Of a stretch of 64,000 nt of DNA, positions 20,925 through 53,864 are shown in pieces (within the stretch, counting starts at the first letter, position 1; each line of letters starts with the position of its first letter). The DNA lies in the NCBI GenBank assembly GCA_016841725.1, contig JAENYP010000010.1, positions 32,971 to 96,970 of the forward strand, read 5' to 3'. The notes below the pieces were generated by a model, which saw nothing but the letters and a program-made list of their open reading frames with translations, was not told the DNA's origin and made no database searches. This stretch comes from Thermincola carboxydiphila. Lineage in GTDB: Bacteria > Bacillota > Thermincolia > Thermincolales > UBA2595. The position numbers and the translations under genes are program-made.

Positions 20925-21332
20925 ATGAATTACGGCAGTACCGGTTTCTTTGGTCCGGGTTCCGGCAAGAAGCAAGGTTCTGGTAAAAAGCCGGGTTTTA
21001 ATTTTGGCAAAAAGCGGCCCCCCGGCTTTGGCGGAGGACTATTCGGTCCCGGTTTTGGCGGCGGCTTTGGTAAGGGTTTTGGTAAGGGTTTTGGCGGCGG
21101 GCTTTTCGATCCCGGCTTTTGGGGCGGACTCCTGGGCCCTGGGTTTGGCGGTGGTTCCGGTGGCGGGCTGTTTGGCCCCGGTTTCGGTAAGGGCTTGGGA
21201 GGCAGGTTATTCAGCCCGGCCTTTGGAGAGTTTTTAGGAAGTCTCCTGGGCGGCCTGTTTGGTGTCAAACCGAACAAAAACCGGGCCAGGTATAATGCCC
21301 GGAGGATACCCGGAAGGAACCGGCGCTATTAA
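20925..21332 (+). CDS. Glycine-rich repeat protein, probable spore coat component
   Basis: 135 aa with about six imperfect repeats of the type GFGGGLFGPGFGKG from residue 35 to 100, a Lys/Gly-rich head and a strongly basic tail (KPNKNRARYNARRIPGRNRR). No signal peptide. Low complexity makes family assignment impossible. Start ATG 20925 is supported by AAGGAGG. The sigma-K-like promoter and the neighbouring CotJC-type catalase suggest an outer spore layer. The reverse strand is also open for much of this length, but that Pro-rich frame is a shadow. Confidence 0.7.
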   Translation: MNYGSTGFFGPGSGKKQGSGKKPGFNFGKKRPPGFGGGLFGPGFGGGFGKGFGKGFGGGLFDPGFWGGLLGPGFGGGSGGGLFGPGFGKGLGGRLFSPAFGEFLGSLLGGLFGVKPNKNRARYNARRIPGRNRRY

Positions 21333-21529: not shown

Positions 21530-22219
21530 ATGTTCAGACACGAAAAACAGTTGCTGCAGATGGTTCGGGTGGAACGTCCCAACCCAAATTACGCTGCAAT
21601 GCTTCAGGAACAGCTGGGTGGTCCCCAGGGTGAGCTAAAAGCAGCCCTGCAATACATTTCCCAGAGTTTCCGAATCAAGGACCAGGCAATTAGGGATGTC
21701 TTTTTGGATATCGCCGCAGAGGAACTGAGCCACATGGAGATGGTGGCCACCGCGATTACCCTGCTTAACGGGCATGACCCGATGGCTAATCAGGCAACAA
21801 TTGGAAATATTGAAGCCCATGTACTGACAGGGTTGAACCCTATGCTGACTAATGCTTCCGGCCAATTATGGACGGCAGCCTATGTAAATGTAACCGGAGA
21901 CCTGCCTGCAGACCTTCTTTCAAATATTGCCGCTGAACAGAGGGCAAAGGTCGTTTATGAATATCTGCACAGGCAGATAAATGACCAGTATGTCAGGCAG
22001 ATGATTGACTTTCTGCTGAATCGGGAGGAGGCTCACAATACCATGTTCCGGGAGTGCCTGCAGAGAGTCCAGGATACCGGATCAAACCGTGACTGGGGTG
22101 TGGACAAGGATTCCCGGCTTTACTTCAACCTCTCCACACCAGGCAATTATGTGGGTTCTCAACTGCATAATCCCAGTCCGCCGCAGTTTCAGAACCCGCA
22201 GCACCCGTCACAGCACTAA
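21530..22219 (+). CDS. cotJC: Manganese catalase family protein (CotJC-like)
   Basis: 229 aa, ferritin-like four-helix bundle. Metal-site motifs EELSHMEMVATAI and LNREEAHNTMF are present, along with LGGPQGELKAALQYISQSF at the start and the NLSTPGNYV tail of Mn catalases. CotJC of Bacillus is a spore coat protein of this family; the enzyme breaks down hydrogen peroxide without heme, useful for an anaerobe's spores. SD ACGGAGGGG. Monocistronic, without the cotJA/cotJB genes that accompany it in Bacillus, so the symbol is by similarity only. Confidence 0.82.
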   Translation: MFRHEKQLLQMVRVERPNPNYAAMLQEQLGGPQGELKAALQYISQSFRIKDQAIRDVFLDIAAEELSHMEMVATAITLLNGHDPMANQATIGNIEAHVLTGLNPMLTNASGQLWTAAYVNVTGDLPADLLSNIAAEQRAKVVYEYLHRQINDQYVRQMIDFLLNREEAHNTMFRECLQRVQDTGSNRDWGVDKDSRLYFNLSTPGNYVGSQLHNPSPPQFQNPQHPSQH

Positions 22220-43088: not shown

Positions 43089-43246
43089 ATGCCCATAACC
43101 ATTTTATTATAAAATAATTAGCAATTATAGTAATTAACTACTTTCGGATTAACATAAACCGGTCTAAAGTAACCATCCTCTGCCCTCCGGAATATACTGT
43201 TTACAGTCATATGTTTATAGTCATATATTAATAAGGAGGTTTTGCA

Positions 43247-46200
43247 ATGAGTAACGGTAACCCCCTCCTTACAGTTCAAGTGAAGGATGTTAAAATAAAC
43301 CAGCCACTGAGCAACTTCAGGTTTATTGTCAATGAAAACAATGTAGGTAACCCCTTTGACCCTGACCCTGATAACTGGCCATCCCTGAAGCCGGGAGCCA
43401 GTCACAGTCCGGTAATTGCCGTGGGTGATTCATCTGCCCCGACAGTGGCAGTACCGGAGGGCAGTTATTTGGTCTCAGTCCTTGCCCCCGGTTACAAGCT
43501 GGGCGGACAGCACATCAGTGTTTCTGCCGACTTGACCGTGACCATAAGACTCTACCCTGACCCCCTTCCCCTCTCCAAGATCAGGATCCATGTTTTCCAG
43601 GACAACAGCCCGGTCAATGGTGAAGATGATGTTCCGCTGGAACAGGGACTGGAGGGATTCAGGATAGTGATCGGTGATGTGGTAGGAGAAGTGACTACCG
43701 ATTACTTCGGTAATGCCCTCGGGATTATCCTGACTGATGCCAATGGAGATGCCGTTATCGAAAACCTGGCCCCGGGCAAATATGAAGTGCAGGCCATTCC
43801 ACCCGACGGAACCGATTGGATTCAGACCACCACTATCGAAGGAACCCACATAATAGATGCCTGGATTGAAGAGGGCAATGACGGGTACAGTCCGCGGGAA
43901 GGCTTCAAAGCCCCCCTGGTCTGGATAGGTTTTGTACAGCCCATGGAGTTTCCCCTGCCGGGGCCGGGAGAAACTACGGGAACAATCACCACCCAGGTAA
44001 AAACAACCATTGAATTTGTCCCCCCAACCAAACCCCTGACCCTTGGTGACCCTGTAAACCGTCCCTGGGTAGCCCTGACCGATGTGGGACGCACCGATAA
44101 ACAGGTTTATACCGGCCGTGGCGATAGCAGCGGCAATGTCTCCATCCCAAATGTACCGGCAGGGGTATACCAGATGGCTGTCTGGGATGAACCTCTTGAT
44201 TACATTATTTCTTTCAGGACAGTGCAAATACCCGACCCGGTAACCGGCAGCTGGAACGTGGTTGTCACAGACGATCCGGCCAGATATCCCGGTCAAATAG
44301 GTATCCCGCGCTGGTATGGATGGATTCTGGGAACAGTATTCTGTGACAGCAATGGAAATGGGATTTTTGAACCCGGACTGGGAGAAGAAGGTATCCCCAA
44401 TGTTGCCGTAGGGACCAGGTTTAAGGACGGCAGCATCCAGTACAGCGCTGTCACAGACATGATGGGCAATTACTCATTGGATGAGGTCTTTGAACTGGAG
44501 CGTTTCAATGTTTCCGAAGTAGGATTTACCCGGTTTGGAAGAACCACGGCCACAGCCACACCCGACTACCAGAATCCTGACCAGAAGCCCACTACCGTCT
44601 ATGATGGCGACCTGACCCTGGCCACCCTGACCTGGGCGGCAAAAAAGAACCGTATCGACTGGGGCAAAAAAGAATACCCCCTGCCCGGAGCAGACGGTAT
44701 ATTGGGAACTGCTGATGACACCACAAATGGCGGCATATCGGGAATGATATATTATGCCACCATGCGCAACGAACTGGACCCGCGCTATGCCGTAGCCGAA
44801 GGTTATGAGCCGGGAGTCCCCAATGTTGTGGTTAACCTGTATGCCACTACAGTTGACCCGGTAACAGGTGAAATCCAACGGGGACCCAAAATTAATTCCA
44901 TAACCTCAGATGCCTGGGAACACCCCCGGAATACTGACGGAGACCCGGTCCTTGAAGTTCCCGGGACCGGAAACTATATCGCCAGAGGGGTATTTGACGG
45001 CGGGTACGCCTTTGAGTCTCTGGCTGAAGGGGTCTATATCGTTGAAGTTGAAGTACCTGACGGATATAAAATACTGGATGAATCTTCAATAAATACAGGG
45101 GAAGGCGATATCTTTATCCCGGCCGAAAATTTTAGCGTCCAGCTTGCTCCCCCGCCATATGAAGGTTCTTCCCGGACTGCTAAAATTGTAACTTTGACCT
45201 GGGGACAGAATGCCGCTGCCGACTTCTTCATTTATACCGATGTCCCGGTTCCGGGCAGGATAGTTGGTTTCCTGCTGGATGATGTCAATATAGAAACAGA
45301 CCCCGCCAGAATCTACTATGGAGAGAAACGGGGTATTCCCCTGGCACCGGTGGGAATCAGGGATTTTACCGGCCGCCTGATTACAACGGTCCATTCAGAC
45401 CTTAACGGGATTTTTGAAGTCATCCTGCCATCAACCTATACAGCTAATATCCCCTCTCCCTCCGGAGTTGCTCCGGGGATGTACCAGGTAATCGGCAATG
45501 ACCCCGGAGACCCTGAGGCCCCTAACGAGAATTTTAACCCCAACTATCAAACCCTGAAATTGGTCTTTGATGTTTGGCCCGGTAAAACAACTTATGCCGA
45601 TGTGGCCTTGTTCCCCATTACCGCCTTTGTGGAAGCTCCCGGCAGCCAGTTCGCCCAGCCGCCGCTGTGTAAAGTAAAGCCCGGGACCCCGCAAATCAGC
45701 AGGGTCAACAGGGTTTATTTCACCCGCACCGGCACAAGGACACTGGTTATTGACGGCACAGACCTGGGGAACCGGATTGGTTATGTTACCTTGAACGACA
45801 AATTCCTGCCCATCGGCAGGTGGAGAAATAACCGGGTCACCTGTGCTATTCCCAGGAATTTCCCCAGCGGGGCCTGGCAGCTACTGCTATATAATTCCAA
45901 CGGTCTGGCAGCACCAACCGGACTGACCATCCATATCCTTGGCACCTATTATAATCCGGCAATAGTGATTGTTCCGGCAGGCGGTTCTATCCAGTCAGCC
46001 ATAGACAACGCAGCAAATAAAAGCCTGATCATTGTTGAGCCGGGTACTTATTATGAAAGTCCCATCCTCTATAACAATGTTAAGGTTCAGGGGTATGGAC
46101 CGGAAGTTACCAGAATTGACGGGCGCTTTTTCCTGAGCTATCTTGAGCAATGGGTCCAGAAACTTGACAGCATTGAATTCGACGGTAACCAGGAAATCCC

Positions 46201-47677
46201 GCGGGGACAGGTAATTACCGTTATAGCCAAAGACGGTGTATTTAATAGAAATTTCCACACCCAGCTTGACGGTTTCTATATTACAGGCTCCAGGGGTGAG
46301 GAAGGCGGCGGGCTGTATATCAATGCTTACTGCCGCTACCTGGAAATCAGCAACAACATAGTCCGGAGCAACGGCGGCGGTTTCGGCGGCGCTATTACCG
46401 TCGGGAAGGCCTATATTGGAGATAATCATAATGAACGTATCAGAATTTATTACAACAGGATTCTCAACAATGGCGGCATCAGCCTGGCCGGGGCTGTCGG
46501 CATCTTTAACGGCGCCCACTATTATGAAATTGACCATAACGAAATATGCGGCAATTATTCTGCCGAATATGGCGGCGGTATTTCACACTTTGGCCTGAGC
46601 AGGTTTGGCAAAATTCACCGTAACTGTGTATCATTCAATGCCTCCTTTGATGAAGGAGCAGGCATCTTCATCGGCGGCGAACAGCCGGTTCCCCCGGCAG
46701 TGCTTTCGGCAGGTTCCGGTGAAGTAGAGATATACAATAACTGTATCCAGGGAAATGTTGCCAATGATGACGGCGGTGGTATCAGGCTCCTGCAGCCGGG
46801 TACCTACCTGATTAAAATCTACAACAACATGATTGTAAACAATATCTCTACAGACGTGGGCGGCGCTATAGCCCTGGATGATGCCGCCAATGTGGTTATT
46901 TACAACAATACCATCGCCAAAAATATCACCACAGCCACAGCCGAGGACAGTGACGGCAATCCCCATGGCGCCGGTTTGGTCAGTGAAATGAACAGTTCCG
47001 CTTTCCAGGCGGTGCTGCCTCCCGGCTCTCCGGTCTTCAGTGACCCGGTGCTGTTTAATAACCTGTTCTGGGATAACCGGGCTTATCATTTTGATATCAA
47101 TACCGGAAAGCTCTCCAAAGACTACCGGCGGATTGACCTGGAGGTCTTCGGTACGGCCACACCCCTGTATATGACTCCTGATTACTGTTACCTGACTGTC
47201 CCTTACGGTTCCGGGACACATAACATAGTATATAACGGACATAATTCTCCTAGATTTAAGAAAATCTATGATACCAAACTCAGTGTAATAGCATTCACCA
47301 CTGAACCGACCTTTAAATCAGTTAAAATTGTCACCGTAACTCCGGAAGCAGAAGGGGATTACCACCTCAGGCGGAACTCTCCGGCCGTGAACCGCGGCAC
47401 CAAATACTATACCGCCGGGGGCACAACCTGGCAGGCCCCGGATTTCAGTTTTGACGACCTGCCCAGGCCCTGGCAGAGATATGACATCGGGGCAGATGAA
47501 TACTGGCCAATACCCCTACCCTATCCCGTGCTGAAAATCTTTGACACGGTATCCGGTATGCTGAAGAAAAAGGGGATTAATTTCCCATCTCCTTTCATCG
47601 GCCGCACCCCTGCCCTGATGACTGTAAAGACGGCGGAAGAGCCGGAAAGGGGCGATAAAAATGGCTGTAATCAATAA
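43247..47677 (+). CDS. Giant scaffold-like protein: Carboxypeptidase-regulatory/SdrD-like repeats, IPT and beta-helix
   Basis: 1476 aa, no signal peptide or anchor. From N to C: four or five Ig-like modules of the SdrD-B/carboxypeptidase-regulatory type (GTVFCDSNGNGIFEPGLGEE, about 360; GGISGMIYYATM, about 495; GRIVGFLLDDVNIE, about 670), an IPT/TIG-like domain (VYFTRTGTRTLVIDGTDLG, about 830-900), then a right-handed parallel beta-helix (SIQSAIDNAANKSLIIVEPG onwards to about 1300) with Asn/Gly-rich coils, and a tail ending YDIGADEYW. Strong SD AAGGAGG. It overlaps the first cupredoxin gene by 17 nt, so it probably organises or localises those oxidase-like proteins on an outer layer such as the spore surface. 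Confidence 0.75.
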   Translation: MSNGNPLLTVQVKDVKINQPLSNFRFIVNENNVGNPFDPDPDNWPSLKPGASHSPVIAVGDSSAPTVAVPEGSYLVSVLAPGYKLGGQHISVSADLTVTIRLYPDPLPLSKIRIHVFQDNSPVNGEDDVPLEQGLEGFRIVIGDVVGEVTTDYFGNALGIILTDANGDAVIENLAPGKYEVQAIPPDGTDWIQTTTIEGTHIIDAWIEEGNDGYSPREGFKAPLVWIGFVQPMEFPLPGPGETTGTITTQVKTTIEFVPPTKPLTLGDPVNRPWVALTDVGRTDKQVYTGRGDSSGNVSIPNVPAGVYQMAVWDEPLDYIISFRTVQIPDPVTGSWNVVVTDDPARYPGQIGIPRWYGWILGTVFCDSNGNGIFEPGLGEEGIPNVAVGTRFKDGSIQYSAVTDMMGNYSLDEVFELERFNVSEVGFTRFGRTTATATPDYQNPDQKPTTVYDGDLTLATLTWAAKKNRIDWGKKEYPLPGADGILGTADDTTNGGISGMIYYATMRNELDPRYAVAEGYEPGVPNVVVNLYATTVDPVTGEIQRGPKINSITSDAWEHPRNTDGDPVLEVPGTGNYIARGVFDGGYAFESLAEGVYIVEVEVPDGYKILDESSINTGEGDIFIPAENFSVQLAPPPYEGSSRTAKIVTLTWGQNAAADFFIYTDVPVPGRIVGFLLDDVNIETDPARIYYGEKRGIPLAPVGIRDFTGRLITTVHSDLNGIFEVILPSTYTANIPSPSGVAPGMYQVIGNDPGDPEAPNENFNPNYQTLKLVFDVWPGKTTYADVALFPITAFVEAPGSQFAQPPLCKVKPGTPQISRVNRVYFTRTGTRTLVIDGTDLGNRIGYVTLNDKFLPIGRWRNNRVTCAIPRNFPSGAWQLLLYNSNGLAAPTGLTIHILGTYYNPAIVIVPAGGSIQSAIDNAANKSLIIVEPGTYYESPILYNNVKVQGYGPEVTRIDGRFFLSYLEQWVQKLDSIEFDGNQEIPRGQVITVIAKDGVFNRNFHTQLDGFYITGSRGEEGGGLYINAYCRYLEISNNIVRSNGGGFGGAITVGKAYIGDNHNERIRIYYNRILNNGGISLAGAVGIFNGAHYYEIDHNEICGNYSAEYGGGISHFGLSRFGKIHRNCVSFNASFDEGAGIFIGGEQPVPPAVLSAGSGEVEIYNNCIQGNVANDDGGGIRLLQPGTYLIKIYNNMIVNNISTDVGGAIALDDAANVVIYNNTIAKNITTATAEDSDGNPHGAGLVSEMNSSAFQAVLPPGSPVFSDPVLFNNLFWDNRAYHFDINTGKLSKDYRRIDLEVFGTATPLYMTPDYCYLTVPYGSGTHNIVYNGHNSPRFKKIYDTKLSVIAFTTEPTFKSVKIVTVTPEAEGDYHLRRNSPAVNRGTKYYTAGGTTWQAPDFSFDDLPRPWQRYDIGADEYWPIPLPYPVLKIFDTVSGMLKKKGINFPSPFIGRTPALMTVKTAEEPERGDKNGCNQ

Positions 47678-48692
47678 GCGTTTTGGGGCCACCGATGGTT
47701 ACATTACAATGCCCGACGGTTCTGAGCATTACATTTTTGGCTGGGTTGACCTAACCGGAATTCCCGACAGTGAAATATTTTCCTACCGGGGGAAAGCCCA
47801 GCTGCTGGGGCCTCTTTTGGAAGCAAAAGTCGGGGATGAAGTATACCTGACACTGACTAACCTGGGCATGCCGGTCAGGCCCGATCTTGATGACTCCCAT
47901 ACGATCCACTGGCATGGTTTCCCCAACCAGATAGCCCTCTATGACGGTGTCCCGGAAGCCTCGATATCGGTACCGGTAGGGCGGGATTTTGTATACTACT
48001 ATAAACCTCTGGACCCGGGTACTTATATCTACCACTGCCATTTCGAACCTGTGGAACATATCCAGATGGGCATGGTCGGGCCCCTGTTGGTGCGGCCTGC
48101 AGATTATGACCCCGATAATCCGGCATATAAAACGGCTTATGGCTATGCGACCGGGACCGAATTCGACCGTGAATACTTTGTATTCCTGACTGAACTGGAC
48201 AGTGCCGCTCACCATCAGGTGGCTGTTGTGCAGGAATATGACTGGACGGAGTTTTCTCCTGATTACTGGTTACTTAACGGCAGATCCTATCCCGATACTG
48301 TCAAATCCGGCGCAGACCTCCCTGAACAGCCATTTTCAGCTTTAGTTAAAGCAAATTCCGGGGAAACAGTCCTGCTCCGCTATATTAACCTTGGCTACCA
48401 GCAGCATTCCATAGAAATCCTGGGTATCCCTGTCCGGATAGTGGGTCAGGATGCCGTCAGGCCCCTGGGAATGAACGGTGAAAACCTGGCCTACTGGAAG
48501 AACTGCAATTATTTTGCCGCCGGGCAGACCCTTGATGGAATATTTACCGCACCCGCCCCAGGGACGTATCCCGTACTAAACCGGGATTGCTATAAAAATG
48601 CCAATGCCGGAGTGACGCCTGGAGGCATGGTTTCGGAAGTACAGGTATTTACTGCCGGGACCCTGCCTCCCCAGGCCGGCCCAGGGCAGTAA
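47661..48692 (+). CDS. Two-domain multicopper oxidase-like protein A (domain 1 copper ligands)
   Basis: 343 aa, two cupredoxin domains, no signal peptide. Domain 1 keeps a complete ligand set: HTIHWHG (His80, His83, His85) and YHCHFEPVEHIQMGM (His125, Cys126, His127, His133, Met136/138), that is, a type 1 copper site plus two HxH pairs for the trinuclear centre. In domain 2 the matching site reads HSIEILG and the last site NRDCYKN, so its HxH pairs are lost. Active only if another chain provides the other two HxH pairs; protein B does have them. Overlaps the scaffold gene. Confidence 0.8.
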   Translation: MAVINKRFGATDGYITMPDGSEHYIFGWVDLTGIPDSEIFSYRGKAQLLGPLLEAKVGDEVYLTLTNLGMPVRPDLDDSHTIHWHGFPNQIALYDGVPEASISVPVGRDFVYYYKPLDPGTYIYHCHFEPVEHIQMGMVGPLLVRPADYDPDNPAYKTAYGYATGTEFDREYFVFLTELDSAAHHQVAVVQEYDWTEFSPDYWLLNGRSYPDTVKSGADLPEQPFSALVKANSGETVLLRYINLGYQQHSIEILGIPVRIVGQDAVRPLGMNGENLAYWKNCNYFAAGQTLDGIFTAPAPGTYPVLNRDCYKNANAGVTPGGMVSEVQVFTAGTLPPQAGPGQ

Positions 48693-48705
48693 AGGTGGGA
48701 TTAAA

Positions 48706-49902
48706 ATGACAGTTAACATTGAATTGTGGGCTACTGATGGTTATATGAGCACACCTGACGGAAACAGTATTTATATCTGGGGGTTTAGTGATGCCGCCGG
48801 AAAAAAAGCCCAACTGCCCGGACCCAGAATTGTGGTCACCCAGGGGGATGTTGTCAGCATCACAGTCAACAATATCCTTCCCGAAGCCACCTCTCTTTTA
48901 TTTCCCGGCCAGTCAGGCGTATTGGCTGATACCGGCACAGGGCCGCACCTTGCGCAGCCACAATTTGACGGCAGCGGCAATTTAGTATCTCTGACGGATT
49001 TTGCTGATTATCCCGGAAACCCGGACACCAACCCTGCCAGCATTAAATATACCTTTACAGCCGGAAATCCGGGAACATACCTTTATGAAAGCGGTACCAA
49101 TCCCCATAAACAGGTCCCCATGGGCCTTTACGGAGCAATAATCGTAAGGCCTGCCGACTATGACCCGGCGATACCCACCAGAAAAACCGCCTATGGAGAA
49201 AACACCGGAACCGAATTTGACCGGGAATACCTGATAGTTGTCTCTGAAATCGACCCCGCCCTGCACAGCGCGGTAGAAAAGGGAACAGAGTACAAAATAC
49301 GGGAATTCAAACCCCGGTACTGGACTATGAACGGCCGCTGCGCTCCTGACACCATGTTTGCCGACGGTATGGGCTGCCTGCCCAACCAGCCCTATGGGGC
49401 CATGATTATGGCAGAACCCGGCGAAAAAATCCTGATCCGTTATGCAGGCTCCGGGATTGAGAACCACCCCCTGCACCTCCACGGAAACCATACCAGAATT
49501 GTTGCTGAGGATGGCCGCCTGCTTAAGAACGGCGCCACTGATTTATCCTACAAACGGTTCACGGTACTCACCGGGTCAGGCCAGACTTATGACCAAATCT
49601 TTACCTGGTCCGGCCTGGGTTATAGTCCGGCTGACCCGATTCCCACCACTGTACCCAATCTGCGCAACCTGGGCGTGGGAGATGCCGGGTGGACTTTGTG
49701 GAGCGGCAGCCCTTACCTGGGAGAAAAAGGAGATATTCCGGTGGGTGTTACCTCCTTTAATGGGATTGGGGAGTATTACTTTATGCTGCACTCCCATGAA
49801 GAGATGCAGATTACCAACTGGGGCGAGTTTCCGGGAGGGATGATGAGTATGCTGGCAATATTCCCTGCCGGCACGCTCGGAGATACAGGAATAATAGAAT
49901 AA
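48706..49902 (+). CDS. Two-domain multicopper oxidase-like protein B (domain 2 copper ligands)
   Basis: 398 aa, two cupredoxin domains, no signal peptide. Domain 1 has lost its ligands: the HxxHxHG site of protein A aligns with TSLLFPG and HCH with ESG in LYESGTNPHKQVPMGL. Domain 2 has NHPLHLHGN (His254, His257, His259) and MLHSHEEM (His362, His364), giving two HxH pairs, but Ser replaces the type 1 Cys. Exactly complementary to protein A. Follows it by 13 nt with AAGGTGGGA as ribosome site. Longest of the three owing to an insert of about 45 residues before the last motif. Confidence 0.8.
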   Translation: MTVNIELWATDGYMSTPDGNSIYIWGFSDAAGKKAQLPGPRIVVTQGDVVSITVNNILPEATSLLFPGQSGVLADTGTGPHLAQPQFDGSGNLVSLTDFADYPGNPDTNPASIKYTFTAGNPGTYLYESGTNPHKQVPMGLYGAIIVRPADYDPAIPTRKTAYGENTGTEFDREYLIVVSEIDPALHSAVEKGTEYKIREFKPRYWTMNGRCAPDTMFADGMGCLPNQPYGAMIMAEPGEKILIRYAGSGIENHPLHLHGNHTRIVAEDGRLLKNGATDLSYKRFTVLTGSGQTYDQIFTWSGLGYSPADPIPTTVPNLRNLGVGDAGWTLWSGSPYLGEKGDIPVGVTSFNGIGEYYFMLHSHEEMQITNWGEFPGGMMSMLAIFPAGTLGDTGIIE

Positions 49903-49937
49903 TTCCCCCTTTAGGGAACTGAAAGGAGGAATAAGTT

Positions 49938-50876
49938 TTGACAGTAAATATTAACCTGTGGGCCAAAACAGGCAGTTTATCCTTGCCTGGAGCCGGCACA
50001 GTGCCCTTTTGGGGGTTTGCTGGTGCAGCAGCAGGGCCTGCCCAACTGCCGGGACCCCTGTTGGAAGTACCCCAGGGAGAGAATGTTGAGATTTCCCTGA
50101 CAAATGACCTCACCTTTGGTGTTTCTCTTGTCTTCCCCGGACAGGATTTTATTCCCCAGCCGGTAAAAAATCCGGACGGAGCATTCGTGTCTTACAACCT
50201 GGAAACCGCACCCGGAGGCAGCTTAATTTACTCCCTGACCGCGAGCCGTCCCGGTATATTCCTTTACGAAAGCGGCACCGCCCCGGAAAAACAGATTCAA
50301 ATGGGCTTATATGGCGCCATGGTTGTCCGCCCTCCGGGGTTTGACCCCGGTAATCCGGCGACATGGACGGCTTATGGCCCCGGTACCGGAACCGAATTTG
50401 ACGTGGAAAAAATTCTGGTTATCAGTGAAGTGGATACAGCCATACACCAGGCCCTGGCATCAGGTGATGACCCGGCAGCCTATAATCTGGATTATTTTTT
50501 AATCAATGGGCGCAGCTTCCCGGATACGTTAAACCCTGACGACAGCGGGACCCAGCCCTATAGCGGCAAGATCACAGCAAATTCAGGGCAGCGGGTTTTG
50601 TTACGGATTATCAATGCCGGGTTTATGAACCATAATATCCGGCTTCAGGGTATTGATATCAAGGTAGCAGCAGGTGACAGCCGGCCGCTGATAACACCCG
50701 GCCTCGATAAATCGTATCTGAAGCATACAGTTACAATAGGTTCCGGTCAGTCATATGATATCCTGTTTACTGCTCCGGCTGCAGGGAACTACATCCTTTA
50801 TGACCGCAATCTGAATTGCTGTGTCAATGGAAACAATTTTCCGGGCGGGATACTGACTATGGTCGGGATAATTTAG
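49938..50876 (+). CDS. Two-domain cupredoxin protein C (no copper ligands)
   Basis: 312 aa, closely related to protein B in both domains (LYESGTAPEKQIQMGLYGA; TGTEFDVEKILVISEVD). All copper motifs are gone: VSLVFPG, ESG, HNIRLQG and NLNCCVNG. It can only be structural, for instance filling the third two-domain position in a six-domain ring like that of ceruloplasmin or MnxG. SD GAAAGGAGG. Last gene of the four-gene operon, followed by a strong hairpin. Confidence 0.78.
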   Translation: MTVNINLWAKTGSLSLPGAGTVPFWGFAGAAAGPAQLPGPLLEVPQGENVEISLTNDLTFGVSLVFPGQDFIPQPVKNPDGAFVSYNLETAPGGSLIYSLTASRPGIFLYESGTAPEKQIQMGLYGAMVVRPPGFDPGNPATWTAYGPGTGTEFDVEKILVISEVDTAIHQALASGDDPAAYNLDYFLINGRSFPDTLNPDDSGTQPYSGKITANSGQRVLLRIINAGFMNHNIRLQGIDIKVAAGDSRPLITPGLDKSYLKHTVTIGSGQSYDILFTAPAAGNYILYDRNLNCCVNGNNFPGGILTMVGII

Positions 50877-52847: not shown

Positions 52848-53864
52848 CTATCCCAAAAGATATGATGTTGCATTAAAAAAGTAACCCATAACAACAATTC
52901 CAACCGCTACTATCGCGAAGAAGACTGCCAGGAGTTTGGGTTTGACCACCTTTTTCAGCATAATCATAGAGGGCAGCGATAAGGCTGTAACCGCCATCAT
53001 GAAGGACATTACTGTTCCTACTCCAACCCCTTTGGCTAATAATGCTTCGGCTATCGGCAAAGTGCCAAAGATATCGGCATACATGGGAATGCCTACTACT
53101 GTTGCGAGTATCACCGCAAATGGATTATTATCACCAACCACATTTTCTATAATTGACTGGGGAATCCAGTTGTGAATTACCGCTCCTATCCCGACACCAA
53201 CCAGGACGTAGAGCCACACTCTTTTGATAATGTCTCTGACCTGATCCCTGGCAAAGGCTATTCTTTCTTCACGTGTCTTCTCAACAACTACAGAGTCGAC
53301 ATTTTCAATTTCTCTGACATAACCTTCCACATACTTTTCCAGACCTAACTTGTCAATAAATGTGCCGCCGACAACTGCCAAAACCAAACCGACAATAACA
53401 TAGGCAATGGCAATTTTAGCTCCGAAAAATGACATTAATATCAATATTGATGCCAAATCTACAAGTGGTGAGGATATCAGGAATGAAAAGGTAATTCCCA
53501 ACGGCAGACCTGCCGAGGTAAAACCGATAAATATCGGTATACTGGAGCAGCTTCAGAATGGGGTAATTGTTCCCAATAATGCGCCAAGAATATTACCTTT
53601 GATACCTCCCATCCTGCCCAGAATTTTTTTGGTCCTTTCAGGCGGGAAATAGCTTTGAATGTACGATATGCCAAAAATAAGCACAGACAATAAGATGAAA
53701 ATCTTGATCGTATCATAGATAAAAAACTGGATACTCCCCCCAAGTCTCTCCTGGACAGACAAACCAAATACCTTTTCCACCAACAGGCTTACCGATTCTG
53801 AAAGCCATGTCATTCTTAGAAGTTGGTCGTTGAGCCAAATAAATATCTGAGTTAAAATCTGCAT
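52848..53864 (-). CDS. Permease (ArsP/YraQ, DUF318 family) with in-frame UGA, candidate selenoprotein
   Basis: Read through one TGA codon at 53555-53553, the frame gives 338 aa, the normal length of this eight-helix permease family. The text around it is GTITPF-(UGA)-SCSSIPIF, where relatives have FCSCSS, so UGA sits exactly on the first Cys of the conserved Cys-Ser-Cys. Codon 104 would be selenocysteine and codon 106 is Cys. Everything downstream is intact and in frame, unlike a decayed gene. A hairpin ACCGAT-ATTT-ATCGGT lies 14 nt after UGA. The family moves arsenic, copper or zinc species or thiol compounds; third gene after arsR and a CxxC protein. Confidence 0.75.

Follow-up and report, generated by a model that had tools for sequence, protein, structure and literature searches.

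What might three copper oxidase-like proteins and a giant surface-type protein, all encoded together and all devoid of export signals, be doing in a heat-loving anaerobe whose genome contains spore genes? The question is raised by a four-gene operon in a 64,000-nucleotide stretch of the Thermincola carboxydiphila genome (assembly GCA_016841725.1, contig JAENYP010000010.1, positions 32,971 to 96,970), in the following termed the window. The best explanation, to which we assign a probability of about 0.65, is that the three oxidase-like proteins form one heteromeric multicopper oxidase with a single shared active site, and that the fourth protein would hold this enzyme on the surface of the endospore.

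The operon comprises four co-oriented open reading frames at 43247-50876, here named P1 to P4:

43247..47677, + strand: P1, scaffold-like protein of 1476 aa with sandwich domains, a TIG-like part and a presumed right-handed beta-helix part; leaderless
47661..48692, + strand: P2, two-domain cupredoxin protein of 343 aa; domain 1 with the type 1 copper and one half of the cluster ligands
48706..49902, + strand: P3, two-domain cupredoxin protein of 398 aa; domain 2 with the remaining cluster ligands
49938..50876, + strand: P4, two-domain cupredoxin protein of 312 aa with TTG start; ligand pairs in neither domain
43233..43239, + strand: Shine-Dalgarno sequence AAGGAGG of P1

A first-pass annotation of the window had described this four-gene arrangement with its 1476-aa protein and the overlap of P1 and P2 correctly; the two genes share 17 nt where P1 ends and P2 begins. 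The set is not a product of chance because the same order recurs at 58-92% identity in other genera. The claim that export signals are missing was borne out for all four proteins on inspection of starts, Shine-Dalgarno sequences and hydrophobicity: no hydrophobic stretch was seen after any Shine-Dalgarno-bearing start of P1 to P4 in the window, which indicates that leaders are absent, and the P1 frame is open for only four codons upstream of its ATG.

P2, P3 and P4 each match Cu-oxidase families above the cut-off. The first-pass annotation missed the main point, which is that P2 and P3 divide the copper ligands among themselves. The motifs concerned are:

47898..47915, + strand: HTIHWH motif of P2 with H80 (type 1) and H83 and H85 (cluster)
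48033..48074, + strand: HCHFEPVEHIQMGM motif of P2 with H125 and H127 (cluster) and C126, H133 and M138 (type 1)
49465..49482, + strand: HPLHLH motif of P3 with H254, H257 and H259
49789..49797, + strand: HSH motif of P3 with H362 and H364 (cluster); S363 replaces the type 1 cysteine

In an alignment of all P2, P3 and P4 sequences, domain 1 of P2 (HTIHWHG, HCHFEPVEHIQMGM) combines the type 1 ligands H80, C126, H133 and M138 with the cluster ligands H83, H85, H125 and H127, and the ligand pairs are absent from its domain 2. P3 has no type 1 site and no ligands in domain 1 (FPG, YESG); its domain 2 (HPLHxHG, HSH) carries the cluster ligands H257, H259, H362 and H364. P4 forms no ligand pair in either domain. 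Taken together, the halves on P2 and P3 supply the eight histidines that one trinuclear cluster requires, no more and no fewer; the role of each single histidine is assigned from established knowledge of the family. This partition is seen again in about 40 loci. H80, H125, C126, H133 and M138 never vary among 41 P2 rows, 39-40 of which retain H83, H85 and H127; the 39 P3 rows all have H257, H259 and H364, and 38 of them have H362. In the equivalent columns of the other subunits a ligand pair is almost never formed. Comparisons by sequence and by fold both place the type C enzymes 3g5w and 2zwn closest to P2 as well as to P3; domain 2 of these enzymes reads HDH at the position of HSH in P3.

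In homotrimeric two-domain oxidases the cluster ligands come from two protomers (PMC13151041). P2, P3 and P4 would accordingly represent paralogous subunits of one type C-derived heteromeric two-domain multicopper oxidase, probably arranged as a ring of three by analogy with these homotrimeric relatives. From the ligand pattern we consider it highly probable that domain 1 of P2 meets domain 2 of P3 to build one shared active site, the only complete one; P4, as a putative structural and catalytically empty subunit, would close the ring. Electrons from the substrate would enter at the type 1 copper of P2 and pass to the shared P2-P3 cluster, where O2 is predicted from the copper set to be reduced to water. 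A reduced metal, Fe(II) or Mn(II), is our foremost guess for the substrate, at somewhat less than even chances, followed by coat phenols or tyrosines as a more doubtful candidate.

The same division of an active site appears to have arisen a second time:

L091 8654-10945 and L092 8633-10966: two adjacent copper oxidase genes in Dictyobacter, each two-domain, with complementary ligand loss

One of these genes retains only the domain 2 ligands and the other only the domain 1 ligands; in related Ktedonobacteria a single gene carries both halves. In the tree, P2, P3 and P4 each form one clade across all phyla, and the Dictyobacter genes are placed apart from them, among the single-gene Ktedonobacteria in a clade with full support. 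Because of this nested position, the active-site split apparently arose at least twice.

P1 is the candidate for the scaffold holding the oxidase. It matches SdrD_B (1.2e-17 for the whole protein), CarboxypepD_reg, fn3_3 and SpaA-type sandwich domains, and its parts are distributed as follows:

44333..44659, + strand: SdrD_B domain, aa 363-471
45689..45898, + strand: TIG/IPT-like domain, aa 815-884; below the curated cut-off (18.0 vs 20.9 bits)
45959..47146, + strand: presumed right-handed beta-helix with sequence repeats, about aa 905-1300, limits approximate

The Beta_helix family PF13229 is significant in only one of five P1 orthologues (2.3e-5), and a comparison of P1 with solved structures gave no match.

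Where would such a complex reside? Leaders were assessed by a home-made hydrophobicity test of Shine-Dalgarno-bearing starts and not by SignalP. In the sporulating Bacillota clade, leader-like starts were found in 0/29 P1, 0/29 P2, 0/28 P3 and 0/29 P4 sequences (0/115 in all), in contrast to 23 of the 28 relatives outside this clade. Since these relatives are mostly leadered, the family is evidently extracytoplasmic elsewhere. Of 16 named genomes that carry the leaderless operon, 15 have SpoIVA or SpoVAD, against none of eight with a leadered one, and a SigK family match occurs in all 20 carrier genomes of the phylum (18 whole, 2 split). The occurrence of the operon in organisms that do not form spores, regarded beforehand as a finding that would speak against a spore role, is confined to leadered versions, which fits a spore location. 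One leaderless operon, that of Desulfocucumis palustris (L068), belongs to a genome without SpoIVA, SpoVAD and SpoVAC; it is decayed, as P1 is missing and H362 of P3 is replaced by Asn. Another lies in the “actinobacterial” metagenome-assembled genome (MAG) L074, which carries SpoIVA, so that its label is doubtful. Leaderless single-gene relatives are also found in spore formers (L083, L087 and L089 from Fictibacillus, Clostridium sp. CX1 and a Bacillota MAG); both ligand halves are kept only in Fictibacillus, CX1 reads HCQ, and the Bacillota MAG has lost the domain 1 pairs.

A mother-cell origin was examined through promoter motifs, sigma-K-like sites being defined as AC-N16/17-CATAnnnTA. They occur upstream of P1 in 5 of 24 loci, compared with 0.18 expected from shuffles and with 2/147 for control genes of the same loci (score comparison p = 9e-6, shuffle-corrected 4e-5), and none of 119 permuted motifs was as frequent. 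Regarding other sigma patterns upstream of P1, sigma-A was not above shuffles, sigma-G was absent and sigma-E was weaker than sigma-K. Sigma-K-like sites are enriched across loci, but there is no convincing one in Thermincola itself, where the match is located as follows:

43203..43230, + strand: sigma-K-like match ACAGTCATATGTTTATAGTCATATATTA, 16 nt before the ATG of P1, overlapping the ribosome-binding region

Operon neighbours in some genomes point in the same direction. In G029 the 3′ part of sigK ends 270 bp ahead of the operon, and in Moorella the gene ahead of the operon encodes a CotJC-type manganese catalase; CotJC is counted among the spore coat genes, and T. ferriacetica is recorded as spore-forming (PMC3533761). 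An element of about 20 kb splits the sigK gene of G029 and bears at its edge a large serine recombinase, named from its sequence (L108 1458-3324; L028 5679-6068). The arrangement resembles the skin element of B. subtilis, and the P1-P4 operon comes directly after it.

In endospore formers, the four proteins would probably be synthesised by the mother cell at a late stage, under sigma-K (or sigma-E), and join the spore surface when the mother cell lyses, where P1 would anchor the enzyme, which would act once the spores meet air. We favour this deposition on the spore surface as the rather probable fate of P1 to P4. The corresponding proposal of the first-pass annotation is partly supported, through the leader contrast, the sigma-K enrichment, the sigK and CotJC neighbours in some genomes and the decay in Desulfocucumis. 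This support does not come from the neighbourhood in the window, to which the annotation had also appealed, and does not extend to the metal-oxidising or cross-linking chemistry that it had proposed. The spore genes there are real (GerA, Spore_permease, SpoVAD and SpoVAC, in addition to a CotJC-type Mn-catalase at 21530-22219 with 77% identity to the operon neighbour in Moorella), and AcsB and CooS are encoded upstream of the operon. No flanking gene is conserved across genera, so that the cassette is a self-contained unit and neither the spore genes nor those of carbon monoxide dehydrogenase/acetyl-CoA synthase (CODH/ACS) are evidence by themselves; their position beside the operon is probably coincidental.

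The missing conservation of flanks is one of several points that weigh against a spore-borne, shared-site oxidase. The leader contrast represents one deep split between two groups of organisms and not 29 independent events. Within the phylum, SpoIVA is found in 19 of 20 carriers and in 317 of 378 other genomes; it is almost as frequent in the latter, so that co-occurrence at this level proves little and was discarded as evidence. An exact sigma-K site is absent from most loci, and the match in Thermincola, the only one there, is unconvincing because it lies too near the start and has no equivalent in the sister species. Neighbours of the sigK or CotJC type are limited to a few genera. With respect to the active site, the ligand pattern has exceptions (H83 is replaced by P in an acidobacterium and H362 by N in Desulfocucumis), the loss of P3 is paired with a loss of cluster ligands in P2 in one genome only (G051, see below), and the single-chain models are weakest near the ligand loops (84-101 in P2; 305-353 and 369-378 in P3).

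The alternative that survives best, although rather unlikely, accepts the shared-site oxidase and places it in the cytoplasm of vegetative cells, where it would act, for example, against O2, Cu(I) or metal stress without any role in spores. Leaderless proteins indeed stay inside unless another route exists, O2-reducing oxidases are encoded in the window's genome, and arsenic-resistance genes lie downstream of the operon in the window. This is opposed by the mostly leadered relatives outside the sporulating clade, by the domains of P1, which are typical of surface proteins, by the enriched sigma-K-like sites and by the decay of the operon in the sole leaderless genome without the tested spore genes. 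The oxidases in question, of the COX1 family and the cytochrome bd type, also weaken the statement of the first-pass annotation that an enzyme of this kind is unexpected in an anaerobe. Both types are lacking in 12 of the 20 operon genomes, and in many carriers the enzyme would therefore meet O2 mainly as part of a spore.

A second and unlikely alternative is that P2, P3 and P4 form separate homotrimers without a shared cluster, P2 serving as a one-copper electron carrier and P3 as a different, metal-binding protein. The two-domain fold is retained in each protein, including the single-chain models of P2 and P3, and the genome G051 lives with P2 and P4 only. In this very genome, however, the absence of the P3 gene goes along with the loss of H83, H85 and H127 from P2 (HTIYWEG, HCY), and the type 1 ligands H80, C126, H133 and M138 are spared. 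Moreover, separate homotrimers would leave unexplained that the complementary ligand sets yield the full eight histidines, each conserved over great distances, that a second lineage divided its site identically, and that the genes are adjacent wherever the set is complete.

Still less probable is that the operon moves horizontally as a cassette of marginal value and resides in spore formers by chance. The distribution is patchy, with P2 relatives in 20 of the 398 sampled genomes of the phylum, the flanks vary, and broken copies exist. The same four genes in the same order are found in other Bacillota, namely Thermincola, Moorella (three named species), Desulfoscipio geothermicus and Desulfallas, and further in Tepidibacillus decaturensis, Candidatus Fermentithermobacillaceae and many MAGs. 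G001, a genome of the same genus as that of the window, corresponds to the contig of L052, which comes from a T. ferriacetica MAG. Outside the phylum, genes related to P1 to P4 are adjacent in Myxococcus, two Deltaproteobacteria MAGs, a Ramlibacter MAG and an Actinomycetes MAG, and relatives of P2 and P3 (and P4 where the contig is long enough) in Gallionellaceae, Gammaproteobacteria and Acidobacteria MAGs. A cassette of marginal value is at odds with the conservation of gene order, ligands and protein length across Thermincola, Moorella, Desulfallas and Tepidibacillus, which implies selection. The broken operons are those of G172 (L076/L106 779-6040), in which P1 and P2 are split and P3 is lost, and of G370 from the Moorella clade (L100 8316-11201), in which only P4 and part of P1 remain.

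A NirK-like copper nitrite reductase instead of an O2-reducing oxidase, suggested by the two-domain trimer with a type 1 site in domain 1, by NirK structures among the fold matches and by a weak match to TIGR02376, is very improbable, since the nearest structures are multicopper oxidases, the HxH and HCH of P2 and the HxH pairs of P3 make up an eight-histidine set, as is typical of a trinuclear cluster, where NirK needs three, and TIGR02376 reaches 41.2, 28.8 and 27.6 bits against a cut-off of 296.3.

Two further features of the window were recorded. At 52848-53864 (- strand) an ArsP-type permease gene in arsenic-resistance surroundings contains an in-frame stop, due to either a pseudogene or a sequencing error. 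At 20925-21332 (+ strand) a glycine-rich GFGKGFG repeat protein of 135 aa with a coat-protein-like composition adjoins the CotJC-type Mn-catalase gene.

Two-domain copper oxidases are the supposed bridge from simple cupredoxins to the six-domain, one-site ceruloplasmins. Ligands divided among paralogues, with undivided relatives still extant, would illustrate one route from a symmetric homotrimer with three sites to an obligate heteromer with one. In addition, the operon offers a candidate surface oxidase for anaerobic, metal-reducing and acetogenic spore formers, such enzymes being better known as CotA and MnxG from aerobic Bacillus. Taken as a whole, the combination of a trinuclear cluster encoded by two genes, an empty third paralogue and a beta-helix scaffold on the spores of anaerobes, using O2 and with a split that occurred at least twice, has in our view slightly better than even chances of being correct. 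The sequences themselves show the ligand partition, the conservation, the leader pattern and the promoter enrichment, from which the complex, its O2 chemistry, its substrate, the spore location and the scaffold role of P1 are deduced. A direct test is feasible in cultured species of Moorella, Desulfoscipio and Tepidibacillus.

Among the known systems, CotA of Bacillus subtilis is likewise leaderless; it is a three-domain single chain and is not known to have a scaffold gene beside it. A CotA-type identity was rejected, as the operon chains have two domains each and a ligand set that is partial or empty. The shared aspect is the location proposed here, CotA being a copper oxidase of the laccase type that belongs to the outer coat of the spore (PMC7036934). 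The MnxEFG complex of marine Bacillus spores is also a spore-borne, multi-protein multicopper oxidase (PMC5622069). It differs in that MnxG is the sole multicopper oxidase and MnxE and MnxF have no known homologues, and an identity with MnxG was rejected (NF041487, 10.6 bits against a cut-off of 3100). The open-access literature searched, itself incomplete and without subscription papers, contained no description of this operon or of any multicopper oxidase that is split or heteromeric. The two-gene split of Dictyobacter shows the same complementary division of domain 1 and domain 2 ligands, and differs in its apparently independent origin, the presence of leaders, and the lack of P4 and of a P1 match.

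The layout proposed here, in which six cupredoxin domains share one trinuclear cluster, corresponds to that of the ceruloplasmin type. The latter is a monomeric single chain (PMC13151041), whereas three chains are expected for the operon. Closest are the type C oxidases, defined by a type 1 copper in the N-terminal domain (PMC13151041) and represented by the blue copper oxidase of Nitrosomonas europaea (3g5w) and a metagenomic two-domain laccase (2zwn). They too consist of two cupredoxin domains, the first of which resembles P2 (type 1 copper, HTIHWHG and HCH...EH..MxGM) and the second P3 (HxxHxHG and HxH, no type 1 cysteine). P2 carries the type 1 ligands in domain 1 as well, in its 41 rows and in its fold matches to 3g5w and 2zwn. 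In type C enzymes, however, one chain contains both cluster halves and three identical chains make three sites, whereas in the operon P2 has one half, P3 the other and P4 neither, so that one site per heterotrimer is expected. Judged by its ligands, the operon oxidase would thus work like the type C enzymes and derive from them, yet it departs from their characteristic feature of both halves in every chain.

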